From Microtetraspora fusca (GTDB lineage Bacteria; Actinomycetota; Actinomycetes; Streptosporangiales; Streptosporangiaceae), in contig NZ_BBYK01000081.1 of the NCBI RefSeq assembly GCF_001570365.1, forward strand, positions 1 to 55,295: DNA of 55,295 nt. Reading direction: 5' to 3'. Position numbers and translations under genes: made by a program. Below the pieces are notes generated by a model. It was not told where the DNA came from and ran no database searches. It saw only the letters and a list, made by a program, of their open reading frames with translations. Below, in pieces: positions 43,149 to 53,150 of the stretch; the first letter of the stretch is position 1; each line of letters opens with the position of its first letter.

Positions 43149-43222
43149 CGGGGTGTAGCGCAGCTTGGCAGCGCGCTTCGTTCGGGACGAAGAGGCCGTG
43201 GGTTCAAATCCCGCCACCCCGA
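43149..43222 (+). tRNA. tRNA-Pro (anticodon CGG)
   Basis: The 74-base gene folds into a full cloverleaf: acceptor CGGGGTG/CACCCCG, D arm GCGC/GCGC, anticodon arm CTTCG-TTCGGGA-CGAAG with anticodon CGG, five-base variable loop and T arm GTGGG-TTCAAAT-CCCGC. No CCA is encoded. Its 3' part from the anticodon loop is the attachment site of the island to the right. Confidence 0.95.
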
Positions 43223-43225
43223 CCC
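43181..43225 (+). repeat. att copy 1 (3' part of tRNA-Pro)
   Basis: Forty-five bases, from the anticodon loop through three bases past the tRNA, recur exactly at 47962-48006 and 52845-52889. Copy 1 and copy 3 share five further bases downstream (GATAG). Copy 1 and copy 2 share two more upstream (CG). Confidence 0.93.
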
Positions 43226-43239
43226 GATAGATGCAGGTC

Positions 43240-43275
43240 AAGGGCCTGATCGCTGGAGACAGCGGTCAGGCCCTT
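43240..43275 (+). terminator. Left-end hairpin of element A, likely tRNA terminator
   Basis: A 16-bp stem (43240-43255 with 43260-43275, GAGA loop, one G-T wobble) lies 18 bases past the tRNA. The same hairpin with paired base changes follows att copy 3. Confidence 0.75.
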
Positions 43276-43280
43276 GATCG

Positions 43281-43312
43281 TTTGACCGTCATTTGACCGT
43301 CACTTGACCGTC
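43281..43312 (+). repeat. Arm-type direct repeats at the left end of element A
   Basis: TTTGACCGTC at 43281-43290 and 43292-43301 and CTTGACCGTC at 43303-43312 form an 11-base-period array. The same decamer recurs near the integrase-derived ORF (47819-47839) and after att copy 3. Position and spacing fit tyrosine-integrase arm-binding sites. Confidence 0.75.
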
Positions 43313-43570
43313 GGTCTGAACGCCTCCAGGGGGCACCGACAGGTTCAAACGAGTTTTCCTGGACACCTTGATCGCTGCATGATGTCCCGTGCAGGCGAAG
43401 CCTTGTTCAGATCAGGAAGGCCGACCAAGCGACCAGCGTCCAACCGCTCAGATGACAGAGCGTCCAGTGATGCCCACCCCTCCTCCGTACGACATGACGC
43501 TCGGCGATATCGCCATCAAGCACCCTCGCCTTGGTGCCGTACTCCAAGAGGCACACAGGCGCAGGGCCCG

Positions 43571-43840
43571 ATGTCCACGAGTCAGCTGGAGGACGTCCGT
43601 CTCAAAGGTGCGAACCAGTTGCTCCTCCGGCTCGATCAGCTCGTTCAGGCGTTTCATGCCGAACCGCCGCTCAAGCGTGTGGCATTCCTAATCGAACGCA
43701 GCATCGCTGACTTCGAGACAGCGCTGGAGGCCACCCTTGCCGGGTACGGAGCCGTCGCCTTCGACGCCATGCGCGCGCCCCGGCGACATCCTCACCGCTG
43801 CAGGCCACAACGGCTCTGCCGGCACCCGCGCCGAGCATGA
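43571..43840 (+). pseudogene. Truncated hypothetical gene
   Basis: From the ATG at 43571 the frame reads like a real, helix-rich protein for about 65 residues (L-E-D-V-R-L-K-G-A-N-Q-L-L-L-R-L-D-Q-L and A-F-L-I-E-R-S-I-A-D-F-E-T-A-L-E-A-T-L). It then turns abruptly into Arg/His/Pro-rich sequence after V-A-F-D-A-M-R, as expected if the reading frame is broken near 43770. No start-proximal ribosome site is strong. I do not recognise its function. The rest of the 43313-44346 stretch shows no convincing gene. Confidence 0.45.
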
Positions 43841-44346
43841 GCTGAGCCTGGCCGACCGGACAACGAAGGCCCACAGGCCCGACAGCCGGTTAGCCGCGAC
43901 TTCGCGCCCTCATGCCTTGGTGTGGATCGCCGCCATCAATACGGGGAACCCGTAGCTGCGCGGCGGCGGATAGTCAGGGGCCGCCAGGGGCCGGATCGGC
44001 AGGTAGCGCACCCCGTCCTGGCGAGCGCCTGGGCGGCCTCGGCGCAGGCAGGCGCGGATGACGGCCGTGGGCCGCGCGGCCTGAGATACGGGGGCGGGAG
44101 TGCGGCGCCGCGCGGAATGCGACTCATCCAGGCGGATAGCGGCGGGGTATGCGTATCACGCCTCACGTGTGCTAGGTTGAACGTAGTTGCAGTTGTGGTA
44201 CCCATAATGAACTTGTGTGCACCTGGCAGATGTAGCCTCAGGTGCATTTTTTGTTTGCCGGTCTTCTCCGGGTGTGGGCCTATCTCGGCGACGCGGAATT
44301 CGTGCAGTGCGGATTTCGGCTTTGCACCTATCAAGAGGAGATCAAC

Positions 44347-44553
44347 ATGGCTTCTGGCACCGTGAAGTGGTTCAACGCGGAAAAGGGCTTCGGCTTCATC
44401 GAGCAGGACGGCGGCGGCGCCGACGTCTTCGCACACTACTCCAACATCGTCTCTCAGGGCGGCTACCGCGAGCTGCGCGAGGGCCAGAAGGTGGCCTTCG
44501 ATGTCACCCAGGGCCAGAAGGGCCCTCAGGCCGAAAACATCGTTGCCGCCTGA
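44347..44553 (+). CDS. cspA: Cold-shock protein
   Basis: The 68-residue CspA-type protein binds single-stranded nucleic acid. Both RNA-binding motifs are intact: K-G-F-G-F-I near residue 14 and V-F-A-H-Y near residue 29, with G-T-V-K-W-F-N-A at the start. AAGAGGAG precedes the ATG. A leader of about 180 bases with no ORF lies upstream, starting near a TTGAAC...CATAAT promoter-like stretch; long leaders are common in cold-induced csp genes. A very strong terminator follows. Confidence 0.95.
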
Positions 44554-44564
44554 CAAATAGCGCC

Positions 44565-44608
44565 ACGTATCAGGGCTCACACCTTCACGGGTGTGAGCCC
44601 TGATACGT
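44565..44608 (+). terminator. Terminator after cspA
   Basis: A perfect 19-bp stem (44565-44583 with 44590-44608) around a 6-base loop starts 12 bases past the cspA stop and is followed by TTTCC. Confidence 0.9.
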
Positions 44609-44786
44609 TTCCGGCTGCTGCATCGCTGCCGCACGAGAATCGGCGGCACGGGATGTCCACCACAGCCCCACAGCTCCTCGATACCAGTAATCGACAGCGT
44701 GCGAAACGTTATTACACCTGGCAGGAGGCACGCATCCGGGAGGTCAGGCCAGCGAAAAGCGCGACCACGTCGCCAAGCTGCACACC

Positions 44787-44818
44787 AAGACCCGGTCAGC
44801 CTCACGCTGCCGGGTCTT
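44787..44818. terminator. Terminator of the MerR-like gene
   Basis: AAGACCCGG (44787-44795) pairs with CCGGGTCTT (44810-44818). It lies 14 bases beyond the stop of the leftward regulator gene. The gap between the cspA terminator and this hairpin (about 180 bases) holds no recognisable gene. Confidence 0.7.
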
Positions 44819-44831
44819 CTCACCGCCGGTG

Positions 44832-45233
44832 CTAGTGTCCGGCCGGGCGGTCGCGCGCGTTGTTGATGCGCAGCGCCTCGGCGAGCTGGTCTTCCAAGAT
44901 GATGATCCGGCAGGCGGCTTCCACAGGAGTGCCCTGATCGACGAGTTCCCGCGCGCGCGCAGCCAGCCGCAGCTGGTAGCGGGAGTAGCGGCGATGGCCG
45001 CCGCTGGAGCGTTTCGGCTCGATCAGTTTCGCGGCACCCAGAGCCCGCAGGAACGCGGGGCTGACACCGAGCATCTCCGCGGCCGCGCCCATGCTGTAGG
45101 CGGGGTAGTCCTCATCGTCGAACCGATCCTCGAACCGGTCTTCAGCCCTGAATCCAGCCCTGGACCCGGCCGTGTCCGCAATCCTGCCGTGAGCGAGCGT
45201 TTCGCCCTCGGCAGCCGAGCGAGGTTGATCCAT
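44832..45233 (-). CDS. MerR-type helix-turn-helix regulator
   Basis: The 133-residue protein has a charged N-terminal region of about 40 residues, then a MerR-like DNA-binding domain: Y-S-M-G-A-A-A-E-M-L-G-V-S-P-A-F-L-R-A-L near residue 47, followed by G-G-H-R-R-Y-S-R-Y-Q-L. A helical segment and a short tail follow, with no ligand-binding domain. This short form occurs in actinobacterial genomes near csp genes. A GGAAAGGAATGT ribosome site precedes the ATG. It faces cspA and may regulate it, which is inference. Confidence 0.8.
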   Translation of the reverse strand: MDQPRSAAEGETLAHGRIADTAGSRAGFRAEDRFEDRFDDEDYPAYSMGAAAEMLGVSPAFLRALGAAKLIEPKRSSGGHRRYSRYQLRLAARARELVDQGTPVEAACRIIILEDQLAEALRINNARDRPAGH

Positions 45234-45663
45234 ACATTCCTTTCCATCACACGCACAGGGGGCCCCGGCACCTGTCGCGCCGGGGCCCCGAAGAGTTCAA
45301 CACCATCTACCGGCCATATCTGGCCGGCTCACTGTTTCCGCATCCGCCGTACTGAGCGGCGGTGATGCGGGGATCGCGGATGCGTGACCGTAGACCACCT
45401 TCCCATCCGTGGAATTCCGGTACCCGAGCGGCGAGACTCAGCCGGCAACGGGCGATCCCGATGGCGTCAAACACTCCCTTCATCTCTTTCTTCCGGACCA
45501 CTATCCGGCTTCACCTGCGGCAGCGCGTCCACGATCAGGGCCCCTAACCACTGCGCTGGCCCGTCACGTCCGACCTTCTGCCATCAACTTCCAACTTCAT
45601 CTTGCTCCGGGCAGTTCATCGTGGTGCTAGTACTTCCGCTGCCCGGCCGATCCGTTCCTTACG
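45234..45663. other. Non-coding stretch with a strong hairpin
   Basis: GGGGCCCCGGC (45259-45269) and GCCGGGGCCCC (45279-45289) form a perfect 11-bp stem just upstream of the MerR-like gene. The rest of these 430 bases has no gene I can support and lower GC than the core genome, in keeping with degraded mobile DNA. Confidence 0.45.
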
Positions 45664-46023
45664 ATGCGAGAAACACTAGCCCCAGCGGCCACAAATGTCT
45701 ACTGCGGCGAACATACATTTTCGGTGTCGAGCGCGGCAGCCTTCCGGCTCTACCTCGCCGGCGCCGGCGGGCCGCTGTCCTATGACGCCGCCCGCCACCG
45801 CTGGACCACCTACTGCGCGGCGGCCGGGCTGAACATCGACATGCACCAGCTGCGCCACGCCCACGCCACCGAACTGATCAACTCCGGCGTGTCCATCGAA
45901 GCCGTCCGCCGCCGTCTCGGCCACGCCTCCACCGAGACCACCCAGCTATACGCACTGCTGGACGACAAGGTCGCCGACGCCGAGATCCGCGCCGCCCGCC
46001 GCCGCGACCGGGTGACGCGCTGA
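45664..46023 (+). pseudogene. C-terminal fragment of a tyrosine recombinase
   Basis: From about 45730 the frame reads as the end of an actinobacterial phage-type integrase: W-T-T-Y-C-A-A-A-G-L-N-I-D, then H-Q-L-R-H-A-H-A-T-E-L-I with the second catalytic Arg and its H-x-x-R, then R-L-G-H-A-S-T-E-T-T-Q-L-Y-A-L with the conserved His and nucleophilic Tyr. The N-terminal core-binding domain and first catalytic Arg are missing, and the bases before 45730 look unrelated. It points opposite to the other integrase ORF of the element. Confidence 0.75.
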
Positions 46024-46329: not shown

Positions 46330-46566
46330 TCACGCGCTGGAACCGAAGGCGCTCCGTACGTTCTCTCTGTCGGCTCCGATCAGGACGAGCAACCCGATGG
46401 TCGGCACTCGATAGGTGTCACCGACCCTGATGACGCGGCAGGGAAACTCGTCGCGCTGGACGAGGCGATAGGCAGTGTTACGGCTCAGTCCGAGAGCTTG
46501 GGCAGCCGTGAGGAGCGGAACGACAGCGGGCAGTGCCTGGACCTCGGCCAGAGTCAACGGTTTCAT
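46330..46566 (-). CDS. Excisionase-like helix-turn-helix protein
   Basis: The 78-residue protein has a compact AlpA/excisionase-type winged-helix pattern: L-L-T-A-A-Q-A-L-G-L-S-R-N-T-A-Y-R-L-V-Q near residue 20, followed by F-P-C-R-V-I-R-V-G-D-T-Y-R-V-P. Such proteins bend DNA at att sites to favour excision or act as small repressors. Its ATG overlaps the stop of the chimeric integrase ORF (ATGA) and GAGGAGG lies just upstream, so it is coupled. An xis gene downstream of int-derived sequence is the reverse of the usual xis-int order. Confidence 0.8.
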   Translation of the reverse strand: MKPLTLAEVQALPAVVPLLTAAQALGLSRNTAYRLVQRDEFPCRVIRVGDTYRVPTIGLLVLIGADRENVRSAFGSSA

Positions 46567-47807
46567 TGAGCACCCTCCTCACGCCCCTCGGGAAGGTCAT
46601 CCAGCAGTTCGCATGCATGATCGGCCTGTTGGGAAGCAGCGGGGCTACCCACGGCGCCTATGCATGGCGTACCGACGGGCGCGGGCGTGATCAATCCCCG
46701 ATGGGCGAGATAGGTCTGGCAGTCGGCGCGGGTCCAGCCGATGGCGAGCAGCGGGAAGACGTTGCGGATGTAGGCCACCTCTGCAGCCCTGGCACGGCGG
46801 ACCTCGTCCACGCTGAGGCCGATCGCATGCTCGGCGTAGACACCGTCCGGGACGCGACGGGGGTGCGGGTAGCCCAGGAGCGACCGTATGACCGCCCCGA
46901 CGGGCCTGATCAAATACATGCAGGCGCATGGTCGCTGGGCCACACCCTGTTCCCCATCCGAGTGCAGGCCGGACGGCGCCACGGAGACAGGCAAGCGATC
47001 CGGATCGAGGGCGTCGGGGCGGGTGCCCGGGACGGAGACTCGGACGGTCGGGATGCCCGCCTCGACCGCGATCGTCTCCATACGGTCGAGATGCCGCATG
47101 ACTTCTTTCGATTCCCGCCCGGTGTGCGCGAAGATCGCCGCGTCGAAGCGCGGGATCACCCGGTCGGCGGCGAGCAGCAGGAGCGCGGTGGACCATCGCA
47201 GGCCGGTCTCGATGGAGGTCTCCACCAGGAGTTGAGCGTCGGCGTCGGGGAGCGCTCGGTATAGGAGGTCGAACTGCTCGGGCGTGATGATCGTGCGCGG
47301 CTTCCGGGGAACGGTGGGCGTCTTCACACCTCGGCACGGGTGGAGATAGGTCACCTGGTCGTTGAGCGCCGTAGTGAAGATCGCGCTCAACAGGACCTTG
47401 GCGTACTTGATGGTCGCCGGGCTGACGCCGTTCTTCTTCATGCTGGCGACCCACGCGCGCACGTGCTCGGGAAGGATGTCGATCATCCGCATAGCGCCGA
47501 ACTCGGGGATCAGGTGCCTGTGGATCGTGTACGTGTAGCTCTGCCGGGTGGTCGCCTCGATCTCGTGATTGGGCAGCCAGGTCTCGAGGACGTACCGCTC
47601 GAAGGTCTGCCGCCCGCGCCGCGGATCTCCTACCCGCCCCTGCGCGACCAGGGCCTCGGCATCGCGCCAAGCCTTGTCCGCCTCCTTCTTGCTGGAGAAC
47701 GTGCCGGCGGACTTCTCCGCGCCCTTGAGGTCCCAGTAGTAGGCCGTGTATCGGGGCTTGCCGTCCCCGCCGGTCCGCTTCCGCGAGTACCCCACTCCGT
47801 CGATCAC
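46563..47807 (-). CDS. Chimeric ORF: N-terminal half of a tyrosine integrase joined to a PAPS-reductase-like segment
   Basis: Residues 1-205 are a normal actinobacterial integrase: an AP2-like arm-binding domain (Y-T-A-Y-Y-W-D-L-K-G), a SAM-like core-binding domain (H-L-I-P-E-F-G-A-M-R-M) and the start of the catalytic domain up to E-T-G-L-R-W with the first catalytic Arg. From S206 (near base 47192) it reads S-T-A-L-L-L-L-A-A, D-A-A-I-F-A-H-T-G, L-G-Y-P-H-P-R-R-V-P-D-G-V-Y and Y-I-R-N-V-F-P-L-L, the pattern of PAPS-reductase/DndC-like proteins found on mobile elements. That part lacks the start of its PP-loop and ends abnormally after T-P-C-I-G. The remaining integrase residues (Arg, His, Tyr) are absent, so recombinase activity is not expected. 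Confidence 0.8.
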   Translation of the reverse strand: MIDGVGYSRKRTGGDGKPRYTAYYWDLKGAEKSAGTFSSKKEADKAWRDAEALVAQGRVGDPRRGRQTFERYVLETWLPNHEIEATTRQSYTYTIHRHLIPEFGAMRMIDILPEHVRAWVASMKKNGVSPATIKYAKVLLSAIFTTALNDQVTYLHPCRGVKTPTVPRKPRTIITPEQFDLLYRALPDADAQLLVETSIETGLRWSTALLLLAADRVIPRFDAAIFAHTGRESKEVMRHLDRMETIAVEAGIPTVRVSVPGTRPDALDPDRLPVSVAPSGLHSDGEQGVAQRPCACMYLIRPVGAVIRSLLGYPHPRRVPDGVYAEHAIGLSVDEVRRARAAEVAYIRNVFPLLAIGWTRADCQTYLAHRGLITPAPVGTPCIGAVGSPAASQQADHACELLDDLPEGREEGAQ

Positions 47808-47818
47808 CTCCTTGATCG

Positions 47819-47839
47819 TTTGACCGTCGTTTGACCGTG
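47819..47839 (+). repeat. Arm-type repeats at the right end of element A
   Basis: TTTGACCGTC (47819-47828) and TTTGACCGTG (47830-47839) repeat with the same 11-base period as the left-end array. They lie 12-32 bases upstream of the chimeric integrase start. Confidence 0.75.
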
Positions 47840-47961
47840 GGGCCCGCCGTCACGGATGGGCCCCCTCGGTCACTGCTGGGTATCTAAAAATGCCTATCTA
47901 CCTGGGATTATACGAACCTTCGATCACTCGACCAGGGGCTGCTATGAACGCGTCATACCCG

Positions 47962-48006
47962 TTCGGGACGAAGAGGCCGTGGGTTCAAATCCCGCCACCC
48001 CGACCC
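47962..48006 (+). repeat. att copy 2
   Basis: Exact 45-base copy of the tRNA-Pro 3' part. The 5' half of the tRNA is absent, so this is not a functional tRNA gene. It separates element A from segment B. Confidence 0.93.
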
Positions 48007-48022
48007 AGAAGTACCAGCTGAG

Positions 48023-48052
48023 AGGCCGGTTCCGATCTTCGGAGCCGGCCTT
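48023..48052 (+). terminator. Hairpin after att copy 2
   Basis: AGGCCGGTTCCGA (48023-48035) pairs with TCGGAGCCGGCCTT (48039-48052) with one wobble, followed by CTGCGTTT. It resembles a native tRNA terminator and differs from the hairpins at copies 1 and 3. Confidence 0.7.
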
Positions 48053-48220
48053 CTGCGTTTGCTGAGTGACTATGCCCCGCACGACAGCAGCCAGCCGCTA
48101 TATAGGAGAGGCCCCTGCCCCGGCACGCCGATGACCGCCTCCTGCCCCAGGCCCAGGCCCACCGTGCAGGATGCGCCCCGGCACGCTCGATCTGCCGCCT
48201 GGCAGATCGGGTGGCTTGCC

Positions 48221-48772
48221 CTATTTCCAGATGGCCTGACGGAGGATGGACGACAGGCCCGGCGTCTTCCAGTGGTCGACGACGATGACCTTCTTGGACT
48301 TCATGTACCAGACCCGCTGGGTGTAGGAGAGTTCGGTGCCGCACGACACCGTGAACTGGTTGTAGCGCGCAGGCTTCCCGCCGAAGGACACGTTTCGGCT
48401 GCGGACCAGCTTGGCCCCGCTCTCCGTGTGCTTCTTGTCGGGCACGCACTCCATCACCCCACTGCTGGGGTGGTAGAGCTGGCCGACCTGGTACGGGCCG
48501 CCCTCGTGGCCGTAGTTCACCTGGTCAGGGCCGCCGAGGAGGAAACTCTTGCACTCGGTGGCCTGTTTGGAGCAGGCGCCGGTGATGACGCGCAGGCCGG
48601 AGCCCTCGGCCTTGGTCCGCCAGGTGCTCGGAACCTGGATGGAGAAGCCCTGGAAGGACACCGTCTTGGCCGAGGCCTGAGCGGGGGCGCCGGTCGTTAT
48701 CAGAGACGCGCTGAGCGCGATAGCCATGATCACGGTCGGTGATCTTATGGGTCGCTTGCACGACGGCGTCAA
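48221..48772 (-). CDS. Secreted protein of unknown function
   Basis: The 183-residue product has a signal peptide (basic C-K-R-P-I-R, hydrophobic I-M-A-I-A-L-S-A-S-L, A-Q-A-S-A cleavage region). A mature domain of about 148 residues follows, with V-S-F-Q-G-F-S-I-Q-V-P-S-T-W near its start and four Cys in two pairs (C-S-K-Q-A-T-E-C; later M-E-C-V and V-S-C-G). The S-I-Q-V-P-x-T-W pattern recalls small lipoprotein-like domains of actinomycetes, but I cannot name it. The TTG at 48772 keeps the basic n-region. It is divergent from the kinase gene. Confidence 0.65.
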   Translation of the reverse strand: MTPSCKRPIRSPTVIMAIALSASLITTGAPAQASAKTVSFQGFSIQVPSTWRTKAEGSGLRVITGACSKQATECKSFLLGGPDQVNYGHEGGPYQVGQLYHPSSGVMECVPDKKHTESGAKLVRSRNVSFGGKPARYNQFTVSCGTELSYTQRVWYMKSKKVIVVDHWKTPGLSSILRQAIWK

Positions 48773-48845
48773 TGACTTTCGAGTGTGTAGAAAACTACAG
48801 CTTTTCGACAGAACCTATCCGGCAGTTGAAGCATCTAAAGCTCCC

Positions 48846-51800
48846 GTGGAAGCTCTGATTCCGGGGGACCCGCAGCGCTTGGGCGAGTACTGGCTGGCCG
48901 GTCGCTTAGGCGCCGGCGGGCAGGGTGTGGTCTACGAGGCGTACGCCGAGAACGGCACCCGGGTGGCCATCAAGGTCCTGCACGGCGACCAGGCGGCGCA
49001 ACTGGCCAAGGAGGCGGCGGCAGCTCAGCGGGTCTCCTCGTTCTGTACTGCCCGGGTCATCGAGGCCGAGCTGGACGGACCGCGACCGTACCTGGTCAGC
49101 GAGTACGTCCCGGGCCCCAGTCTGCGCAAGGCGGTCGCCGAGGGCCGCCGCTTCCACGACGGGGACCTGCACCGGCTCGCGACCGCGGTGGCCACGGCGC
49201 TGACGGCGATCCACGGGGCCGGCGTCGTCCACCGCGACCTCAAACCGGACAACGTGCTACTCGGGCCCGACGGTCCGCGGGTCATCGACTTCGGCATCGC
49301 CAGGACGGCCGAGATGTCGCTGACCGCGACCGGGCTGGTCACCGGCACGCCTACCTACATGGCGCCCGAGGTGTTCTCCGGTCAGCGGGCGGGCCAGCCC
49401 GCCGACGTCTTCGCCTGGGGTGGGATCACGTTCTACGCGGCCACCGGCGCCGACCCGTTCGAGGCGGAGAGCCTGGGCGGGGTGATGCACCGCGTGCTGT
49501 CGTCGAACCCCGACCTGAGCGCGCTGCCCGAGCTGATGCGCCCGCTGGTGAGCGCGGCGCTCATGAAGGATCCACGCGAGCGCCCAAGTGCCAGGCAATT
49601 GCTGCTCGCCCTGGTCAGCGGCGACAGCCGACTCGACACCGCGCGGCTGCTGGCCCAGGGCGGCCGCACCGCGGCCCAGATGGCCGGGCCGGGCGACGAC
49701 CCGGCGCTCGGCACGCTCGCCGAGGAGTCATACGCGCTGCTCGGCCCGGCCGAGCGCGAGCTGGTCCCCGAGGTGTTGCTGCGGCTGGTCACAGTGGGTG
49801 AGCGCGACGAATTGGCGGTCCGGCACGCGGGCATGGCCGAGCTCGTGGAGGGTCGGCCCGCACCCGAGGTCGCGGCCATCACGCGGATCATGGAGGTGTT
49901 CGGCTACCTGCTTGGCCGGGACCAGCAGGAGGTCTGGCTGGCCCATCCCGCCCTGCCGCACGCATGGCCGCGGCTGCGCCGCTGGATCGAGGCAAACCGC
50001 GACGGTCTGGCAGCGCACCGCCAGATCCGCAACGCCGCGCAGCAGTGGGAAGAGGCGGGACGCAAGGACGGAGATCTCCTCCAGAGCACCAGCCTGGACG
50101 GCGCCCTGCAGTGGGCGGCCACCTACCGCAGGAACATCACGCTCTCGCCCGTCGAGCGCGACTTCCTGGAGTCCTCGGTGCGCGTGACCAGGCGTCGTGC
50201 CAGGCGGGCCAGGCTGGTCACGCTGAGCCTGGCGGGACTTCTGGTCATTGCGCTGACGGGCGGCGGGCTGGCGGTGTGGCAGGGCAAGGAGGCCGACGCC
50301 AAGGCCGAGGAACTGGCGACGGCGTTACGCAGGTCGGAGTCGATCCGCCTCGCCGCACTGGCGGACGCGACCAGGCGCACGGACCCGCGTCTCGGCCTGC
50401 TGCTGAGTGTGGCAGCCTGGCGGCTCGCGGGCACGACACAGGCCAGAACGGCGCTGAACGGCGCGCTCGCCCAGCGCGAGCAGGCGATGTTCCGCGACAG
50501 CGGTGGCGGGGCGGGTGCACTGACCTACTTCGCCGCCGACGGGCGCACGCTGGTCAGCTTGCGCGGCGGCCTGGCGCGCCTGCTGGACGTTCGCTCGGGC
50601 CGGCAGGTCGCGGCGGTCACAGGGCTCGACCTTGGCGGCGGGCCGGTCACGGACCTTGCGTTGACGCCCTCTGGCCGCACGCTCCTTGTGGCGAACGACG
50701 AGCGGGCCGGGGCGTGGGACGTCCGCACCGGTGAGGCTGTCGGCACCTGGCCGACTCCCCGGGTGTCGGACCGGATCACCAGGTGGGCCGAGGCCGTCGC
50801 CCGGAACGAGGGCACGCGGGTGAGCGTCCGCGCCGGCCACCAATGGGAGGTGGTCCCCGCGGAGCTGTCGTCCCGCACGGGTGTCGTCAGTCCCGACGGC
50901 AGGTGGAGAGCGTCGCACGTCCGAGGCAGGCTGGTACTGGCCGACCTCAGGAAGGGCTCGGCGCAGGGGCCCGGAGAAGGGATCGACGACAACGGCGACG
51001 CGGTCTTCAGCCGGAACGGGAGGCTGCTGGCGACGGTGTCGCGGGCGAGCATCCGGTTCTGGCGGCTGCCAGGTCTCCAGCCACTTACCAAGGCCCAGGT
51101 CCGCGGCGACGGGGACGCCGCCGTCCGGCCGATCGGTGCCTTCGACGGCTCGACGTTCCGCTATCTCATGGGTGACCAGGTCTTCTCACTCGACGTCGCC
51201 GACCTGACGGCCGAGGCGGGGCGGGAACCGGTGAGTCGGGCCGTGCTCAGCGGGGACGGGCGATATCTGGTCGTCTCGAACGCCGATGACGCGATCACCG
51301 TCCGCTCGCTTGCCACCGGGAAGGACCTGCCTACCATGCCGGGCCCCGTCGCCTTCGCCTTCAGCCCGGACAGCAGGATGGCCGTGGTACACGAGGGCCG
51401 GACCAAAGTCCTGGACCCGGCCACGGGGAAGGTCCTGGCGGACTTCGCGGCGGGCGAGCAGAGCTGGGAGGTCGCCTTCAGCCCGGACGGGCGGCGCCTC
51501 GCGCTCCTGCTGCCGGCCGGGGTCGGGCACGCGGTGGAGCTCTGGGATTGGGCCGCGCGCCGCAGGCTGTGGCGCACGCCCACGGCGGAGCCCAAGGCGC
51601 TCGCGTTCTCCCCGGACGGTCGGCGGCTGGCCGTCGTGGGCCGGGACCAGCGCCTGCTCGACACCGCTTCCGGCGTGCCTATCGGCGAGCCGTTCGGCGA
51701 GATCGGCGCCGGCGAATCAGGCAGGCAGGCGTGGTTCACCCGTTCAGGGACGATCCTGATCGTGCACGACTCGCGTGGACGCATCACCCGCTGGGACACC

Positions 51801-52184
51801 GCCACCCGCCGGAGCGTCGGCCTGCCGGTGCGCGGCGTCTTCGGCACGGGCGCAGCCTACTCTCCCGCAGAAGACCTCATCGCGTTCCCGCAGAGCCAGG
51901 GCCGGGTGCTGCTGTTCGACCCGCTCTCGGGCAGCAGCCTCGGCCGCTCCGCCGATACCGGCGGCGGGCTGGACCCCGCGACCGGCCAGGTATGGTCTGC
52001 GGCCTTCTCCCCGGACGGTTCACGCGTACTGACCGTCGACGGCCACGCCACGGTCAGGAGCTTCCCCGGCGCGCCGGAGACCGCCGCCCAGGCCGCCTGC
52101 ACGCGTGCCGGGCGGTCGCTGACGCGGCAGGAGTGGGCGGAGCACGTTCCCGCGCTGCCTTATCTGGAGGTCTGCCCGCGCTGA
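48846..52184 (+). CDS. Ser/Thr protein kinase with membrane helix and C-terminal WD40-type propeller
   Basis: The 1112-residue protein has an intact Hanks-type kinase domain: G-loop L-G-A-G-G-Q-G-V-V (about residue 22), catalytic Lys43 in V-A-I-K, H-R-D-L-K-P-D-N (H129), D-F-G (148) and A-P-E. A helical region like those between kinase/STAND and propeller modules follows, then one membrane helix near residues 457-478 and a WD40/TolB-like region to the end with repeated F-S-P-D-(G/S)-R and T-P-S-G-R-T motifs. The propeller would lie outside the cell, so a sensor kinase is likely. GTG at 48846 is chosen because the kinase fold begins about 12 residues later; the ribosome site is weak. Confidence 0.88.
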   Translation: MEALIPGDPQRLGEYWLAGRLGAGGQGVVYEAYAENGTRVAIKVLHGDQAAQLAKEAAAAQRVSSFCTARVIEAELDGPRPYLVSEYVPGPSLRKAVAEGRRFHDGDLHRLATAVATALTAIHGAGVVHRDLKPDNVLLGPDGPRVIDFGIARTAEMSLTATGLVTGTPTYMAPEVFSGQRAGQPADVFAWGGITFYAATGADPFEAESLGGVMHRVLSSNPDLSALPELMRPLVSAALMKDPRERPSARQLLLALVSGDSRLDTARLLAQGGRTAAQMAGPGDDPALGTLAEESYALLGPAERELVPEVLLRLVTVGERDELAVRHAGMAELVEGRPAPEVAAITRIMEVFGYLLGRDQQEVWLAHPALPHAWPRLRRWIEANRDGLAAHRQIRNAAQQWEEAGRKDGDLLQSTSLDGALQWAATYRRNITLSPVERDFLESSVRVTRRRARRARLVTLSLAGLLVIALTGGGLAVWQGKEADAKAEELATALRRSESIRLAALADATRRTDPRLGLLLSVAAWRLAGTTQARTALNGALAQREQAMFRDSGGGAGALTYFAADGRTLVSLRGGLARLLDVRSGRQVAAVTGLDLGGGPVTDLALTPSGRTLLVANDERAGAWDVRTGEAVGTWPTPRVSDRITRWAEAVARNEGTRVSVRAGHQWEVVPAELSSRTGVVSPDGRWRASHVRGRLVLADLRKGSAQGPGEGIDDNGDAVFSRNGRLLATVSRASIRFWRLPGLQPLTKAQVRGDGDAAVRPIGAFDGSTFRYLMGDQVFSLDVADLTAEAGREPVSRAVLSGDGRYLVVSNADDAITVRSLATGKDLPTMPGPVAFAFSPDSRMAVVHEGRTKVLDPATGKVLADFAAGEQSWEVAFSPDGRRLALLLPAGVGHAVELWDWAARRRLWRTPTAEPKALAFSPDGRRLAVVGRDQRLLDTASGVPIGEPFGEIGAGESGRQAWFTRSGTILIVHDSRGRITRWDTATRRSVGLPVRGVFGTGAAYSPAEDLIAFPQSQGRVLLFDPLSGSSLGRSADTGGGLDPATGQVWSAAFSPDGSRVLTVDGHATVRSFPGAPETAAQAACTRAGRSLTRQEWAEHVPALPYLEVCPR

Positions 52185-52209
52185 AGCGTCCACGGGTCCG
52201 CGGTTCGGC

Positions 52210-52625
52210 ATGAGTCCCGACGAGGTCGTAGCTGCGCTGGACGGCGCCCAAGCAACGATCTCCGCCGGTTGTGAAGAACAGTTCACCAAGGTAGGCGTGA
52301 CGACCTACTACACCGATTCCGCGCATCTGGCCTGCGTCGCGGTAGATGCGCTCAACGGTCCGCAAGTCACGCTGGACGGCATGGTGCGTGCTGGGTCGGA
52401 CGGGTGCCGTCCGAGACGGAGCAGCGGGTCTGGGATCACACGAAGGCGTACGGACTGGACCTGCGCTACACACACGAAGGAAACGCTCTATCGGTGCACC
52501 TGGGGCTCATGATGCGCGTGCAGCGGGCAGGGGACGCCGTCCTCAGCCGACCACTCTTCCTCATCCGTGAGTGGGCGATGGAAGTCTGGCACCATATACC
52601 CGCTTCCGAGTGGTCGAGGTTTTGA
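52210..52625 (+). pseudogene. Frameshifted small gene downstream of the kinase
   Basis: From the ATG at 52210 the frame reads protein-like (S-P-D-E-V-V-A-A-L-D-G-A, then D-A-L-N-G-P-Q-V-T-L-D-G) to about 52390. The next frame continues smoothly from about 52400 (P-S-E-T-E-Q-R-V-W-D-H-T-K, R-V-Q-R-A-G-D-A-V-L) to the stop at 52625. A single-base indel between 52385 and 52405 would join them into a protein of about 138 residues. It is 25 bases from the kinase stop, so it may once have formed one transcript with it. Function unknown. Confidence 0.6.
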
Positions 52626-52724
52626 TGCCACCGTCTTGAGCGTCCGCCCGCATGCAGGCCCGTGGCCACCCGCACGGCGTTCCAGTCAGCAATGCAGCGG
52701 CGATCACTTGAGCACGGCGGACCG

Positions 52725-52746
52725 ACTGGGTGACGAACTGGGTGAC
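52725..52746 (+). repeat. Direct repeats near the right end of segment B
   Basis: ACTGGGTGAC at 52725-52734 and 52737-52746 repeats with a 12-base period, about 100 bases before att copy 3. This resembles integrase arm sites of a different specificity from those of element A. Confidence 0.5.
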
Positions 52747-52823
52747 AACGGCCATGGACAAGGCCGGATGACGGTGGATCACTGTGGACCGTATCCGCAG
52801 GCCAGAGTCCAAATGGCCGGAGG

Positions 52824-53150
52824 TCATCCCTCGATCTTGATTGCTTCGGGACGAAGAGGCCGTGGGTTCAAATCCCGCCACCCCGACCCGATAGTCGAGG
52901 GCCTGATCGCTGGAGACAGCGATCGGGCCTTCGATCGTTTGACCGTCATTTGACCGTCGGTCTGAACGGCGCCTGGGGGCACCGACAGGTCACGCGCTGC
53001 ATTGCGCGGGCCACTCCAGCGATCGATCCATGTGCCGTTCGGCGTGAGTCCAGCCTGTAGGAAAACCCGGTTGACGTAACCTTCGGCGGCTCCCTGAGCC
53101 AAAACCAAGGTTGAGATCACGGCATCTCTCTCACGCTGCCTACGTTCCAT
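52824..53150 (-). CDS. Possible gene remnant at the left end of segment C
   Basis: From the ATG at 53150 the first 60 residues look coding (V-I-S-T-L-V-L-A-Q-G-A-A-E-G-Y-V-N-R-V-F-L, then N-G-T-W-I-D-R-W). The rest runs through the arm repeats and att copy 3, where the translation W-R-D-L-N-P-R-P-L-R-P is only tRNA-derived. It may be the end of a gene truncated by integration. The surrounding 52626-53274 stretch holds nothing else supported. Confidence 0.25.
   Translation of the reverse strand: MERRQRERDAVISTLVLAQGAAEGYVNRVFLQAGLTPNGTWIDRWSGPRNAARDLSVPPGAVQTDGQMTVKRSKARSLSPAIRPSTIGSGWRDLNPRPLRPEAIKIEG
52845..52889 (+). repeat. att copy 3
   Basis: Third exact 45-base copy of the tRNA-Pro 3' part, extended by GATAG as in copy 1. 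The sequence after it resembles the left end of element A. Confidence 0.93.
52895..52958 (+). repeat. Left end of a third element (segment C): hairpin plus arm-type repeats
   Basis: An 18-bp imperfect stem (52895-52912 with 52917-52934, GAGA loop) is followed by TTTGACCGTC at 52938-52947 and 52949-52958. The order, loop, period and flanking GGGGGCACCGACAGG match the left end of element A, with paired base changes in the stem. No fourth att copy is seen, so C may continue past the window. Confidence 0.7.

Follow-up and report, generated by a model that had tools for sequence, protein, structure and literature searches.

In Microtetraspora fusca, a single open reading frame begins as a tyrosine integrase and ends as a PAPS-reductase-like protein, and the question raised by this locus is whether a new kind of protein has arisen there, whether an integrative element has decayed into a gene-like remnant, or whether two pieces of the assembly have been wrongly joined. 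The stretch of DNA that was analysed (the window, 55,295 nucleotides) is the whole contig C80 of a 9.02-Mb draft genome in 108 contigs, 99.23% complete. From the analysis reported here, the chimera very probably arose through the decay of an integrative element, rather than as a novel type of protein, and so far it has been met in a single genome.

The frame (46563-47807, minus strand, GTG start, 414 codons) carries integrase residues 1-205 followed by a PAPS-reductase-like fragment, joined in frame at 47193/47192. The minus strand also has a frame of 402 codons, in a different register, that overlaps the chimera. The parts of the chimera and its neighbour are:

47193..47807, minus strand: integrase part, residues 1-205, recognized by profile matches and DNA homology and ending at the first catalytic Arg (TGLRW)
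46634..47192, minus strand: PAPS-reductase-like part, residues 206 to ~391, with DNA homology to a same-genus locus (L078) reaching 46693
46563..46633, minus strand: tail of the chimera, residues ~392-414 and the stop codon, examined by codon-position G+C and homology search
46330..46566, minus strand: gene for a small HTH_17 DNA-binding protein, whose start overlaps the chimera stop by ATGA

The initial annotation had described an uninterrupted 414-codon chimera with a junction near 47192 and an integrase part reaching the first catalytic Arg, and on these points it is borne out by the open frame, by the profiles PHROG_1 (tyrosine integrases; residues 7-211, E=9e-33) and PHROG_424 (PAPS reductase family; residues 206-379, E=8e-16) and by DNA homologies that meet at one shared base, 47193, where the integrase side ends and the PAPS side (L078, 46693-47193) begins. 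On the integrase side, DNA matches in six loci (L003-L007 and L036) run from 47193 through the gene start to 48004-48072 with 80.5-85.2% identity; L003 aligns to 47193-48072 and L004 to 47193-48071, and Microbispora is the source of the 85% DNA homology. In the aligned integrase relatives the joint reads GLRW-GEL, while the window has GLRW-STALLLL; at the same region the PAPS relatives have SLGxGVxS followed by STALLLL or an SSxLLLL-type sequence. Since the overlap at the joint is a single base, there is no repeat that could explain homologous recombination or a repeat-driven misjoin. As for the start, a likely ribosome-binding site (AAGGAGGTGATC) lies 6 nt upstream of a GTG at 47795 (residue 5), which is also the first matched position in many homologous alignments, and this GTG is probably the true start.

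The integrase half contains a core-binding SAM-like domain (PF14659, E=1.9e-9, 38 bits against a cut-off of 22.6) and would comprise an N-terminal region with a presumed arm-binding role, the core-binding domain and the beginning of the catalytic domain. The catalytic set of tyrosine recombinases is Arg-Lys-His-Arg-His/Trp-Tyr; in the chimera the first Arg (TGLRW) alone is kept and the later residues are gone, and no match to the catalytic domain PF00589 was found, although the intact integrase L003 does match it. A search of genome contigs with the chimera protein returned 54 loci, 52 of which have an integrase match reaching at least residue 200 (L046 and L054, at the match cut-off applied, do not). 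After Trp205, 51 of the 52 integrase homologues continue with Gly-Glu; in L055, residue 204 is followed by a stop codon. The continuation of the chimera is shared by none of the 52. Short copies are common in this family: leaving out homologues at contig ends, 9 of 50 have fewer than 215 codons past Trp205. Another broken copy of this integrase family, as judged by alignment, is the piece L051/L085 of Microtetraspora sp. NBRC 16547, which is 96% identical over residues 125-205 and has lost both its N-terminus and its end.

The PAPS-reductase-like half is also incomplete, and more so than first described, when only the first part of the PP-loop was thought to be missing. Four PHROG_424-type PAPS-like cargo proteins (L079-L082), with 50-54% amino acid identity to this half, have the motifs SLGAGVQS, ADTGWEP, CxGCP and CSPWxC, whereas the chimera has none of them intact. 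In fact, the N-terminal PP-loop (SLGAGVQS in the intact relatives) is absent, the integrase TGLRW standing in its place up to the last Ser; AHTGRES is found instead of ADTGWEP; the second Cys of CIGCP is apparently lost; and ~80 C-terminal residues, including CSPWxC, are absent. The locus L078, from a genome of the same genus (G003, contig C7), has 86.2% DNA identity over 501 bp and 73% amino acid identity. It is altered at the same places as the chimera and is also shortened, but it keeps a PP-loop-like SLGVGVKS. In G003 this gene adjoins a serine recombinase, as tested with Pfam (L078, 4269-7684); serine recombinases were also recognized by eye near the PAPS-like genes of L079 and L082 (1051-4823). 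Moreover, a similar short protein was seen by eye near the PAPS-like gene in L078, L081 and L082, the L078 copy having no Pfam match. The PAPS-like gene and its neighbours apparently form a recurring cargo module.

The tail of the chimera (residues ~392-414) has codon-position G+C values of 0.91/0.39/0.52, unlike both halves, although over 23 codons only, and no relative among the fetched loci (best E=0.67). The downstream HTH gene had been reported as a coupled excisionase-like gene. The coupling stands, by the ATGA overlap with the chimera stop; the identity as an excisionase is unproven, because the gene scores 20 bits against the NCBI 'excise' domain, under the 28.8-bit cut-off, and the HTH_17 protein may be called excisionase-like at best. 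Relatives of this gene are up to 63% identical, and no PAPS-like gene lies beside them in the short loci L105-L128.

The surroundings of the chimera are those of a tRNA-Pro gene with repeated att sites:

43149..43224, plus strand: tRNA-Pro (CGG), the integration target
43179..43225, plus strand: att copy 1, 47 nt, the 3' end of tRNA-Pro
43279..43300 (43279/43290), plus strand: paired 11-nt boxes CGTTTGACCGT/CATTTGACCGT beside att copy 1
45664..46023, plus strand: fragment of another tyrosine recombinase, from its C-terminal part (PF00589, E=1e-15)
47817..47838 (47817/47828), plus strand: paired 11-nt boxes, CGTTTGACCGT twice, directly upstream of the integrase start
47960..48006, plus strand: att copy 2, 47 nt, identical to copy 1, ~150 nt upstream of the integrase start
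52845..52889, plus strand: att copy 3, 45 nt, extending the tandem site by one more unit
52936..52957 (52936/52947), plus strand: paired 11-nt boxes CGTTTGACCGT/CATTTGACCGT beside att copy 3

By this layout, the integrase of the chimera belongs to a small decayed island between the 47-nt tRNA-Pro repeats: direct repeats are present, one of them is the tRNA 3' end, and a broken integrase gene adjoins an att copy. For CGTTTGACCGT or a one-base variant, six box matches were counted against 0.77 expected, a number reached in none of 100 shuffles. A pair of boxes stands next to every att copy, and the repeats and boxes are probably the att core and the arm-type sites, respectively, of this integrase family. 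The related tRNA-Pro integrases of Microbispora, Nonomuraea and Spongiactinospora (L003-L007) share 88-93% amino acid identity with residues 1-205, and all five have the tRNA-Pro att sequence upstream (85-100% identity, pieces of 46 to 103 nt); ahead of the L003 integrase start, the paired boxes are identical to those of the window. These relatives carry the whole catalytic domain after Trp205, which the chimera lacks. In Herbidospora (L036, 4778-9912), another ~5-kb unit at tRNA-Pro is bordered on either side by att fragments and contains a broken integrase belonging to this family.

The tRNA-Pro flank is common to three genomes of the same genus (G001, G002 and G003), with further att copies on the same contigs in the parts examined. 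G003 contains window positions 43181-45999 at 97.7% identity inside a tRNA-Pro array, after which the match breaks at a transposase gene that we take to be IS256-like; at this shared tRNA-Pro unit the chimera is absent from G003. Among seven genomes searched, the left part of the unit was found as one long match in G003 alone besides the genome of the window. No TraB, Rep or other transfer or replication gene was identified among the part of the ORFs of the 4.7-kb unit that was scanned. The same att-bounded unit as the chimera holds genes for a cold-shock protein (PF00313; 44242-44553, plus strand) and a MerR-type regulator (PF13411; 44832-45233, minus strand). The recombinase fragment at 45664-46023 is also common to G003, whose sequence breaks near the end of the fragment at the presumed IS256-like gene. 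This fragment was considered as the lost half of the chimera and rejected, its identity being 39% over ~54 residues of the expected C-terminus and its strand the opposite one. Att copies 2 and 3 enclose the adjoining unit (48006-52845), which includes a 1152-amino acid ORF (48726-52184) that by eye resembles a Ser/Thr kinase with C-terminal WD40-like repeats, and a small protein (48221-48772) that by eye looks secreted.

If two contig pieces had been wrongly joined at 47193, the frame would be an assembly chimera. A draft of 108 contigs leaves room for such an error, to which we nevertheless give very little probability, as the joint offers one base of overlap and no shared repeat, and the leftover halves were not found in an assembly that is almost complete. 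A search of the assembly with the integrase C-terminus of the L003 type did not find the missing half: the best match is a 68% paralogue on C62, whose C-terminus is contiguous with its own N-terminus, followed by 16 weaker places. The L078 PAPS region with its flanks matched only the 501-bp piece of the window itself. A misjoin becomes less likely because both missing halves are absent from the assembly, and from these comparisons it appears unlikely.

The fusion was also looked for in other genomes. No second fusion was found among the matches listed for 100 relatives (73 with any match to the chimera protein) or for 341 genomes of the family (300 with any match), nor among the 54 genome-contig loci, where no match extends past residue 231; the viral contigs searched with the chimera protein gave none. 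Of 50,697 phage records 55 matched, and among the best 40 of these no single place covered 80% of the query; 30 of 72,556 plasmid records matched, one of them covering 80% of the chimera protein. This last record, H41 on a Nonomuraea gerenzanensis plasmid (91% of the query in one piece), was rejected as an independent fusion, the alignment running on through an intervening gene, presumably for a single-strand-binding-like protein, and a stop into an ordinary PAPS-like gene. Likewise, Microcystis phage MinS1 (H1, query 19-309) has an ordinary integrase with a run-on alignment. Seven loci with low-identity matches crossing the junction were fetched from the 100-relative search. Six of them match the integrase half (L155 does not), and 4 of the 5 frames examined carry the HxLRH integrase motif further on, L153 looking like a broken integrase. 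Because the PAPS half has no match below E=0.28 in any of the seven, we read these as distant integrases whose alignments run on past the junction. Any close relative of the fusion would be expected to outscore either half alone. Furthermore, no integrase/PAPS-reductase fusion was met in the literature, as covered by titles and the openings of abstracts, and no tRNA-Pro-type integrase followed by a PAPS gene was seen in the flanks of the fetched loci.

The chimera might nonetheless work as a protein: its arm- and core-binding domains could bind the att sites and boxes and make it a repressor of excision or a dominant-negative form of related integrases, the PAPS-like part being either passive or a means of dimerisation. 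The N-terminal region and the core-binding domain are both whole and might still bind DNA; also preserved are the start, the paired boxes and the sequence resembling a ribosome-binding site, and the frame stays open for all its codons and overlaps the HTH gene. The open frame is weak evidence, because the three frames leading from the joint stay open for 209, 11 and 181 codons, so that two of three joinings give at least 386 codons anyway. The chimera cannot act as an integrase, because nothing of the catalytic domain remains beyond its first Arg, nor as a PAPS-like enzyme, because the PP-loop, ADTGWEP, an intact CxGCP and the C-terminal residues are gone.

The evidence on selection is mixed. 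For the integrase half, dN is 0.038 and dS 0.648 between the window and L003. Polarised silent and replacement changes number 28:11 on the window branch against 20:1 for L003 (Fisher p=0.042, uncorrected) and, with L005 as sister, 27:12 against 30:1 (p=0.004, uncorrected), both tests depending on the sister chosen and leaving out ambiguous sites, 21 (L003) and 22 (L005). The window branch is thus proportionally richer in replacement changes, which speaks against a working protein. Constraint on this half is not clearly lost, however, because in a comparison of eight sequences no more than six residues occur in the window alone, and neither the boxes nor the ribosome-binding-like sequence has been damaged; a recent fusion would leave the same pattern. 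In the PAPS half, dN/dS between the window and L078 is 0.43, within the range of 0.26-0.63 of four outgroup genes, the silent to replacement counts are alike (18:24 for the window and 18:25 for L078, 14 ambiguous sites dropped), and there is no extra decay relative to L078. With a single instance in the searches made and a PAPS part that has lost its motifs as well as the two ends of its fold, a working chimera seems highly improbable, and the proposal in the initial annotation of a new protein that binds att DNA without cutting it has gained no positive support. Slimmer still is the chance that the dead integrase and a PAPS-like scaffold stand guard at tRNA-Pro and keep related integrases from excising or integrating elements there.

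The reading as a decay product could be ordered as follows. A small element would have entered the 3' end of tRNA-Pro by means of a tyrosine integrase. Codon 205 of the integrase gene would then have been linked, by illegitimate recombination, to an internal position of a PAPS-reductase-like cargo gene belonging to a different element, the catalytic domain of the integrase being lost at that joining and the frame being kept by chance. The element would now probably be locked between its own att repeats, and any product would neither cut DNA nor perform PP-loop chemistry; the chimera is presumably without function. A deletion fusion of two mobile elements had been suggested for this locus and is the best reading, and both partners agree with it, the integrase belonging to the tRNA-Pro island and the PAPS relative lying beside a serine recombinase; we infer a deletion within nested or adjacent elements. 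Counting against this route, none of the fetched loci pairs an intact integrase with a PAPS gene behind it.

PMC9513070 describes decayed actinomycete integrative elements (AICEs) of Streptomyces as remnants between direct repeats that contain truncated integrases and pieces of cargo, and as units that can lie one after another at a single site, for example a tRNA gene (accretion). As described there, these share with the tRNA-Pro site of the window the truncated integrase between direct repeats and the tandem units, and the unit resembles, by analogy, their accretion and decay; in contrast to them, the truncated integrase of the window shares its reading frame with part of a second gene.

The locus indicates that an insertion hotspot can yield long, open, gene-like chimeras through decay. 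Because two of the three joining frames stay open in this G+C-rich sequence, a product of this sort is easily taken for a protein with a novel architecture. Moreover, the tRNA-Pro gene with its 47-nt att sites and paired 11-nt boxes offers a clean case in which the site use of one integrase family can be mapped.
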